The notes below the pieces were generated by a model that saw only the letters and a list, made by a program, of their open reading frames with translations, ran no database searches and had not been told where the DNA came from. Shown here piece after piece: positions 60,798 through 63,119 of a stretch of DNA of 64,000 nucleotides. The position numbers and the translations under genes were made by a program. This stretch comes from Desulfurococcaceae archaeon MEX13E-LK6-19. Lineage in GTDB: Archaea > Thermoproteota > Thermoprotei_A > Sulfolobales > Desulfurococcaceae. The stretch is taken from NCBI GenBank assembly GCA_029637525.1, contig CP072660.1, positions 1-64,000 on the forward strand, read 5' to 3'. Position 1 is the stretch's first letter, and each line of letters starts with the position of its first letter.

Positions 60798-61433
60798 CTA
60801 CTTGATTTGCGATATAATCCTCTTTATAACATCAATTTTGACTATTCCTTGCCTAACAATGTTTACCTCATTGTCTTGAATTTCTATGACTGTTGAAGGA
60901 ATACGCAACGGCGCTATACCTGAATCTATGTATAGGTCTATTCTGTCTCCCAACTGCTTTATTGCTTCGTCTATAGTTTCTGCGGGTTTCAGCCCACTTA
61001 TATTAGCGCTTGTTCCTGTGACAAATCCATCTAACGATGCAGCTATTTGTCTAGGTAAAGGTGCTGCTGGTACACGGAACCCAACTTTGTTTCTTCCCTG
61101 ATGGAGAATCTCTGGAAAGATACTCTCTTTCAAGGAGAGAATCACCGTAACTGGCCCGGGCCATAGAGCGTAGAGCAGTTCTATAACCCATTCCTTGCAA
61201 TCAGCAATACTTGTAACCGCATCTATACTAGAAGCAAGAACAGGAATCGGCTTGCCAACTCTTTCTTTCACTCTATATACTTTTTCTACACATTCTCTTC
61301 TAGTTGGATCACTAAATACTCCATACACTGTATCGGTGATTCCTACAACAACTCCTTTTTCCTTTATGGTGTTTACTGCTTCTTCTACAACGCTCCTTGA
61401 TGGTTTTATATAGCTTGTTCTAATTATTTTCAT
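60798..61433 (-). CDS. YrdC/Sua5-family threonylcarbamoyl-AMP synthase
   Basis: This protein condenses threonine, bicarbonate and ATP to threonylcarbamoyl-AMP, the first step of t6A37 in tRNA, with the Kae1/Bud32 complex transferring the group. The 211 residues hold TDTVYGVFSDPTRRECVEKVYRVKER (Lys/Arg ATP site) and PVLASSIDAV; further on VGFRVPAAPLPRQIA and TSANISGLKP are typical. The length covers only the YrdC domain, without the C-terminal Sua5 domain. ATG 61433 follows GGTG by eight bases. Confidence 0.9.
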   Translation of the reverse strand: MKIIRTSYIKPSRSVVEEAVNTIKEKGVVVGITDTVYGVFSDPTRRECVEKVYRVKERVGKPIPVLASSIDAVTSIADCKEWVIELLYALWPGPVTVILSLKESIFPEILHQGRNKVGFRVPAAPLPRQIAASLDGFVTGTSANISGLKPAETIDEAIKQLGDRIDLYIDSGIAPLRIPSTVIEIQDNEVNIVRQGIVKIDVIKRIISQIK

Positions 61434-61529: not shown

Positions 61530-61538
61530 ATATAAAAA
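61530..61538 (+). promoter_or_regulatory. Candidate TATA box of the aRF1 gene
   Basis: ATATAAAAA at 61530-61538 is a good archaeal TATA box. A start about 25 bases downstream would fall near 61560, giving a leader that contains GAGGGTG (61568-61574) and the ATG at 61582. Confidence 0.45.
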
Positions 61539-61581
61539 CCTGTGATCGCTATATTGTCTAGAGCCAAGAGGGTGTAAAGGG

Positions 61582-61593
61582 ATGGGCTTTTAG
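61582..61593 (+). other. Mini-ORF ATG-GGC-TTT-TAG in the aRF1 leader (possible +1 frameshift site)
   Basis: The ATG at 61582 is seven bases after GGGTG, the usual spacing in this window, but it meets TAG after two further codons. The main aRF1 frame is +1 relative to it: skipping one T gives ATG-GGC-TTT-AGC-TTG-TCA. P-site UUU followed by UAG allows a +1 slip to UUU, the arrangement of bacterial prfB. Confidence 0.5.
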
Positions 61594-61594
61594 C

Positions 61595-62707
61595 TTGTCA
61601 GAAGAGAAACTAGAGAAACTTAAGGTTGACCGAAGGCAACTGAAGAAGATAATATCAGAACTAAAGAAGTGGAAAGCTCCTGCAACAGTACTATTAAGCC
61701 TCTACATACCGCCAGGTAGACCTATAAGTGATGTACTTAACATGCTAAGACAAGAATATGCCATAACAGATAACATAAAGTTGAAAAAGACCCGATCAGC
61801 CGTCCAACGCGCTTTATCAGCAGCCATGGATAGGCTAAGCATGTTATCCAAAGTACCGGAAAACGGGTTAGTACTCTTTTGCGGAGAAGACATGGATACC
61901 GGCGACTTTATATGCATAATGTTCTCTCCACCAGAAAAAGTACCCGTATACTATTACAGAACAGACAAACACTTCCATACAGAATTCCTTGAAGACATGG
62001 TTGTCGAGAGTAACTTGATCGGATTAATTATTGTGGAAAGAGATGCTGCAACAATAGGCTTACTCAAGGGATCGCGTCTCGAGCTTTTAGAGGAGCTTGA
62101 AGACTATGTACCCGGCAAACACCACCGAGGAGGACAGAGTCAGAGAAGATTCGACAGAATAATAGAACAAATGGTGGATAACTTCTATAAGAGAGTTGCT
62201 GAACACGCTAAGAAATGGTTTGAACCATACCTAGAGCAAAAGAAGCTTAAAGGAATACTTATCGGTGGACCAGCCTACTCAAAATATGATTTCTTGGAAA
62301 AAGACTACCTGGACTATAGACTAAGAAGACTGGTATTACCAAAGCTAATAGACGTAGCTTATCAAGGCGAAGCAGGCTTGCGTGAAATGGTTAGGAAGGC
62401 AAGCGATATACTGAAGAACATAGAGTACGTAGACGCTCTTGAAGCTGTTGAAGAATTTAAACTACATCTCGCTAAAGACGATGGTATGATTGTTTATGGC
62501 GAAGAAGATGTGAAAAAAGCTCTAGAACTAGGTGCAGTAAAAACGCTTATCATAGATGAGAGTAGACCTGATGCTGACGAGTGGTACGAGCTGGCCAAAC
62601 GAAGGGGAGCAAAACCAGTCATGCTGAGCGATGATATACCTGAAGGCGCATGGATAAAGAAGACTTTTGGAGGAGTAGTAGGAATACTCAGATATAAGAT
62701 CTTTTAA
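61595..62707 (+). CDS. prf1: Archaeal peptide chain release factor aRF1
   Basis: It recognises all three stop codons and triggers peptide release. The 370 residues contain NIKLKK in place of the canonical NIKS decoding loop (residues 60-63, Leu for Ser), the GGQ catalytic motif (about 179-181) and the C-terminal domain ending in [17 protein letters not shown], which contacts the ABCE1/Pelota-type partner surface. TTG 61595 is the only start in this frame, but the best-placed ribosome site serves ATG 61582 in another frame. The N-terminal conserved part ([19 protein letters not shown]) is complete. Confidence 0.93.
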
Positions 62708-62837: not shown

Positions 62838-63119
62838 ATGAGACCTTATTTGTCCCCACAGGAGAAAGAACACCTATTAAAACTCATAATACAAGCCGGG
62901 TTAAATGAAGACTTTACTCGATGGCTTGAAGAACAAGGATACAAATTTATCTTCGGAAGACTCGATAATATCCCTGATGAACTAATAGAAGCATATATCA
63001 AAGAAAAGAAGCTTCTAGACTTCGGTGAAGAAGAATACAAAATTTACTATGAATTAGGTGATGTCGAACCCGAATCCAAAAGAAATTACATACCCGCAAA
63101 GAAACCCGGTTTAAGGTAA
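62838..63119 (+). CDS. Hypothetical small protein
   Basis: The 93 residues begin MRPYLSPQEKEHLLKLIIQAG, then an aromatic helix (DFTRWLEEQGYKFIFGRL) and a charged C-terminus (EEEYKIYYELGDVEPESKR). No family recognised. It could be a helical adaptor. ATG 62838 follows GGTGG by nine bases. Confidence 0.45.
   Translation: MRPYLSPQEKEHLLKLIIQAGLNEDFTRWLEEQGYKFIFGRLDNIPDELIEAYIKEKKLLDFGEEEYKIYYELGDVEPESKRNYIPAKKPGLR

Follow-up and report, generated by a model that had tools for sequence, protein, structure and literature searches.

Ribosomes very probably undergo a programmed +1 frameshift at the third codon of the mRNA for the release factor aRF1 of Desulfurococcaceae archaeon MEX13E-LK6-19, by which the gene would titrate its own product. 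At the level of sequence, an out-of-frame start, a slip codon and a stop are clearly conserved among relatives, most of which have no in-frame start codon. Frameshifting at this site is strongly inferred, and its autoregulatory role is suggested by what the gene encodes. The slip would take place on the ribosome, at a rate presumably set by the level of aRF1.

The aRF1 locus

In the window, i.e., the whole analysed stretch of 64,000 nucleotides, the open frame of aRF1 counted from its TTG codon spans 61595–62707 on the forward strand, and the main coding frame after the putative shift, stop codon included, spans 61592–62707. The product scored 454 bits against the TIGR03676 model (aRF1_eRF1; curated cut-off 234.7) and contained all three eRF1 domains (PF03463, PF03464 and PF03465). 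Two eRF1_3 matches were obtained in the genome, aRF1 and one other; the latter is presumably pelota, which makes aRF1 the sole class-I release factor found there. The divergent upstream neighbour (60798–61433, reverse strand) encodes a Sua5/YrdC-family protein (PF01300). Downstream, a 93-residue ORF with GGGTGG 5' of it (62838–63119, forward strand) matched no Pfam family.

All elements of the aRF1 start region described below lie on the forward strand. A predicted TATA-box-like element, TATAAAAA, was read at 61531–61538, and archaeal promoter spacing would place the transcript start at about 61558–61562, giving a leader of about 20–25 nt. Upstream, a TAG at 61559–61561 closes the aRF1 frame. 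A Shine-Dalgarno-like GAGGGTG (61568–61574) stands at initiation spacing to the ATG at 61582–61584, its GGGTG (61570–61574) lying 7 bases 5' of this codon, and is followed by a second such tract, AAGGGAT (61577–61583), a candidate frameshift stimulator. The ATG opens the zero-frame start ORF ATG-GGC-TTT-TAG (61582–61593), and the predicted shift site TTT-TAG-C (61588–61594) consists of UUU for the P site, the stop UAG and then C. A +1 reading at TTT-T resumes at AGC 61592, gives M-G-F-S-L-S-E-E-K and runs into aRF1.

The initial annotation had described this arrangement, with aRF1 one base out of frame with the ATG, and it proved exact on re-reading; the +1 reading did enter aRF1, as the continued frame is the one matched by TIGR03676. 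Up to about residue 29, the TTG at 61595–61597, 20 bases from GGGTG, is indeed the only ATG, GTG or TTG codon in the aRF1 frame, and in the shifted product it would encode Leu.

Proposed mechanism

Translation would be initiated at ATG 61582, and after the synthesis of Met-Gly-Phe the ribosome would pause, its P site occupied by UUU and its A site by UAG. With abundant aRF1, termination at UAG would release the tripeptide. With scarce aRF1, the pause would allow the P-site tRNA to move forward by one base to UUU, AGC would enter the A site and the full aRF1 (MGFSLSEEK..., about 374 residues) would be made. As termination by aRF1 and the slip would compete, the factor would limit its own synthesis, like bacterial prfB. 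Only in a gene for a class-I release factor does frameshifting at a stop codon give direct feedback, which favours the switch. A caveat to the model is the position of the slip, which at codon 3 lies much nearer the start codon than the bacterial one (codons 3–5 in aRF1 genes versus about 25 codons in for prfB).

According to pairing rules, CUU and UUU should re-pair well on the +1 UUU, and AUU and GUU (f2, f6, f7, f10 and f11 of the families compared below) imperfectly. The UAU slip codon of two genomes (G110 and G111) should hardly re-pair and is the weakest mechanical point of the model. In these two genomes (loci L152 and L132, respectively) the site reads GTG-ATG-AAG-TAT-TAG-C with ATT in the aRF1 frame, which may represent either a UAU shift or an AUU start.

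Conservation in the family

A match to aRF1 was obtained in all 40 genomes of the GTDB family to which the window genome belongs (f1), two of these matches being weak and without a gene found, and the counts for f1 rest on the 38 genomes with a readable aRF1 5' end. In all 38, the start ORF is one base out of the aRF1 frame and is composed of ATG (35) or GTG (3), one further codon, a slip codon (TTT in 30, CTT in 8) and TAG, with C (34) or T (4) as the next base, so that ATG/GTG-NNN-YTT-TAG and YTT-TAG-Y hold throughout. The identical ATG-GGC-TTT-TAG is present in four genomes of another genus (G022–G025). The T count at the site, where resequencing had been suggested, is right, and an assembly or sequencing error in the T run was ruled out by the occurrence of the layout in independent genomes. 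Where the second codon is AGY, a TGA arises in the aRF1 frame directly 5' of the slip site, and an upstream in-frame start is therefore of no help. Some in-frame start up to 12 codons upstream was noticed in 12 of the 38 genomes.

The alternative that survives best is an ordinary weak start, with aRF1 translated from TTG 61595 and ATG-GGC-TTT-TAG serving as a leader mini-ORF, which perhaps feeds the TTG by re-initiation. This TTG is in frame and begins one base after the TAG of the mini-ORF, and TTG starts of aRF1 occur in other families of the order (f3, and G164 of f11). However, its spacing of 20 bases from GGGTG is against such a role, and it is present in the window genome only: the other 37 f1 genomes, in which the out-of-frame start, the slip codon and the stop are all preserved, have TAT, TAC or TTC at this position. 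Both mini-ORF re-initiation and a weak TTG need an in-frame start codon, which most relatives lack, and no such codon is conserved at or after the mini-ORF stop. Both possibilities had been named in the initial annotation; they fail in the relatives, and a start at the TTG of the window is improbable. The alignment of the leader in relatives, suggested there as a test, favoured the frameshift, as the leader is conserved in seven families and the TTG in none.

Distribution across the order

The comparison was extended over the order, with the 5' ends of about 150 aRF1 genes. An out-of-frame start 3–5 codons before NTT-stop (98 genes) or TAT-stop (2 genes) was found in 100 aRF1 genes from seven families; all 100 start ORFs are one base out of the aRF1 frame and begin with ATG, GTG or, twice, TTG. 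The stop at the site is UAG in 72, UGA in 26 and UAA in 2 of them, these being counts over related genomes, not independent events, which cover seven families, three stops and several slip codons. The conservation of the out-of-frame start, slip codon and stop across seven families supports the prfB-style +1 switch proposed at the outset. The accompanying claim of a sole release factor controlled by UAG held in part: a sole class-I factor was found, but the stop may also be UGA (f9) or UAA (two genomes).

The layout was detected in 38/38 genomes of f1, 4/4 of f2, 12/12 of f6, 15/20 of f7, 27/27 of f9, 3/3 of f10 and 1/3 of f11, with NTT-stop recurring in f2, f6, f7, f9 and f10; the single f11 genome, G163, also has an in-frame GTG. 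In the Sulfolobus-type family f9, ATG-AGT-CTT-stop was present in all 27 sampled genomes, the stop being TGA in 26, as in bacterial prfB, and TAG in G131, followed by C (19), T (6) or G (2). We take G152 and G138 to be Sulfolobus acidocaldarius and Metallosphaera sedula, respectively; the predicted +1 product of G152 begins with MSLDRYEINR. Judging from this layout, a slip of one base forward is apparently needed to make aRF1 in Sulfolobus, Staphylothermus and their relatives.

Automatic shift-like matches in f3 and f4 were left out of the 100 genes, since in f3 a codon other than NTT precedes the stop and the genomes have in-frame starts. Ordinary in-frame ATG, GTG or TTG starts characterize f3, f4, f5 and f8, with the exception of G128, and the TTG start of the f3 aRF1 (G048/G049) agrees with the N-terminal sequence of the solved chain 3agk. 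In G128 (L065/L137), presumably a Pyrolobus, ACG-AGC stands where sister genomes have ATG-AGC, possibly as an ACG start or a sequencing error. Two genomes, G117 (L136/L251) and G119 (L150), have GGTG ten, not nine, bases before ATT-TAG and no in-frame ATG, GTG or TTG before residue 16, with an in-frame GTG in sister species; their aRF1 starts fit neither the shift nor an in-frame model, and indel errors are possible.

In other classes, the aRF1 starts of the representatives read are ordinary and in frame, f39 excepted. Outside the order, a conserved GTG-GAC-GYM/TGC-CTG-GAA-TAA overlaps aRF1 in a −1, not +1, relation in five genomes (L193–L197; G301, G302 and G304–G306), which we take to be of the Caldivirga/Vulcanisaeta type. 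In G302 and G306 no in-frame ATG, GTG or TTG is found near the aRF1 start. In the five genomes, aRF1 may begin through a −1 shift or at an AUA codon.

No ATG, GTG or TTG occurs upstream in the aRF1 frame in 76 of the 100 genes, the window genome having its in-frame TTG. Another reading considered in this context is a slightly shorter aRF1, begun in frame at a non-canonical codon such as AUU or further downstream, for example at a TTG or ATG of residue 9, 15 or 23. AUU starts are known in bacteria (infC), GGTG stands exactly six bases before ATT in f7, ATT is in the aRF1 frame in G110 and G111, and an in-frame TTG or ATG is present at residue 9, 15 or 23 in some genomes. On the other hand, NTT is out of the aRF1 frame at all 98 NTT sites, so starting there would be of no help, coding-type conservation begins directly after the slip site, and 44 of the 100 genes (44 genomes) have no ATG, GTG or TTG in the aRF1 frame up to residue 22, a position within the first helix. 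Such a start is therefore very improbable.

Constraints on the predicted shift site

The presence of the layout in every genome read from f1, f2, f6, f9 and f10 shows that it is not an artefact of hit selection. The predicted frameshift site is moreover constrained in its codons. In 98 of 100 cases, TTT is the Phe codon that overlaps the site, versus 20–49% of Phe codons elsewhere in the same genes, and Ser at the site is always encoded by AGY versus 35–64% elsewhere in the same aRF1 genes. CTT for Leu (14–26%) and ATT for Ile (16–31%) are minority codons elsewhere in these genes, yet they are fixed at the site. The residue read in the aRF1 frame at the site varies (Ser, Asp/Glu, Asn), the stop of the start frame is always kept, and third-position variation in the aRF1 frame starts directly after the site in the alignment columns. 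Judged by these alignments, the layout is far beyond chance, the position of the stop being kept across 100 genes though its identity changes. A chance motif was also considered and rejected: a genome contains 0–2 copies of GGGATGNNNNTTTAGC, which in f1 lie mostly at aRF1.

Transcriptional slippage, in which RNA polymerase would omit one T in some transcripts and so bring the ATG into the aRF1 frame, could draw on the runs of four or five T at the f1 sites, but it is hardly credible, as the sites of f6, f7, f9 and f10 have three T only, a run too short for known slippage, and a stop kept through UAG, UGA and UAA would be left unexplained.

Shine-Dalgarno-like tracts and RNA structure

Shine-Dalgarno-like purines are present 5' of most sites. 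Pairing-energy profiles were computed with the 3' end of the 16S rRNA of the window genome, GGATCACCTCC. In f1, f6 and f10, two peaks were obtained, one at initiation spacing to the ATG, which in the window is GAGGGTG, and the second corresponding to GAGGGAT, whose end lies a few bases at most from the slip codon. The AAGGGAT tract of the window is this second element, conserved in the alignment columns and reading GAGGGAT in most relatives. In f2 and f7 there was only one peak, near the slip codon; in f7 it is GGTG, exactly 6 bases 5' of the slip codon, and the GTG of this element is likely the start codon. Upstream of the f9 sites GAT-AGGG is conserved and little else, the weak AGGG element being the only one and pairing weakly with the 16S tail. 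The purine tract may stimulate the slip. Downstream RNA structure gave no signal as a stimulator, with mean z of −0.54 to +0.36 in families with at least three genes.

Relation to known recoding systems

Both prfB and aRF1 are class-I release-factor genes in which the start ORF closes with a stop recognized by the gene's own product, with an NTT slip codon before this stop, a pyrimidine after it and a Shine-Dalgarno-like tract upstream. The two factors, aRF1 and RF2, are not homologous; in the profile search, the best family for the former was aRF1/eRF1, followed by pelota. The purine tract ends about 4–7 bases before the slip codon of aRF1, unlike in E. coli prfB, where this distance is 3 bases, and the stop may be UAG, UGA or UAA, unlike in prfB. 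The bacterial shift-site consensus is YTT_TRA_C (PMC3711429); most f9 sites (CTT-TGA-C) conform to it, whereas YTT-TAG-C of f1 and ATT-TAG of other families differ from it in the stop or the slip codon.

The eRF1 genes of Mimivirus and Megavirus (R726 and mg280) have the shift sites CUU UAG C and CUU UAA C, and such mechanisms are stated there to be absent from archaeal homologues (PMC3521657). These factors resemble aRF1 in being of the archaeal/eukaryotic class-I type with such sites, but they are virus-encoded and have a second recoding event, UGA readthrough, upstream (PMC3521657). Known archaeal recoding includes a −1 frameshift in the Sulfolobus alpha-fucosidase gene and readthrough for selenocysteine and pyrrolysine (PMC8211752; PMC8037382), i.e., programmed recoding too, but not of the +1 type proposed for aRF1; no case in aRF1 is given in the 2021 review on recoding in archaea (PMC8211752). 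No report of an archaeal aRF1 frameshift was found among the open-licence papers searched, and a report outside this set is possible. In the GeneTack genome-wide screen, genes with shifts less than 50 nt from the start escape detection, which would explain why the aRF1 shift has gone unnoticed so far.

Evolution and significance

Mapped onto the aRF1 tree, the label (shift or in-frame) takes 4 changes, against 15.1 after shuffling. This number agrees with a single early gain inside the order, followed by losses in f3 and f8, in part of f11 and probably also in one f7 genus (G116, G118 and G120, with an in-frame GTG). More than one gain is possible, the deep branches of the tree being weakly supported. 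We consider it likely that the sole omnipotent release factor of these archaea is under an autoregulatory +1 frameshift that arose once near the base of the order, independently of prfB and giant-virus eRF1, that accepts any of the three stops and that was lost several times through an in-frame start; self-titration by a shifty stop would thus have been reached at least three times. The proposed aRF1 switch is best called a new, convergent variant, prfB-like in its working but not prfB by descent.

The start sites of aRF1 in the order are probably misannotated. The order includes members with working genetics. The autoregulation of prfB by recoding is a textbook case, and its architecture recurs here across an order of archaea, in a release factor not homologous to RF2. 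To our knowledge, a conserved programmed +1 frameshift in a core gene of archaea would be without precedent. If true, it would provide a strong case of convergence, with one omnipotent factor metering all three stops.
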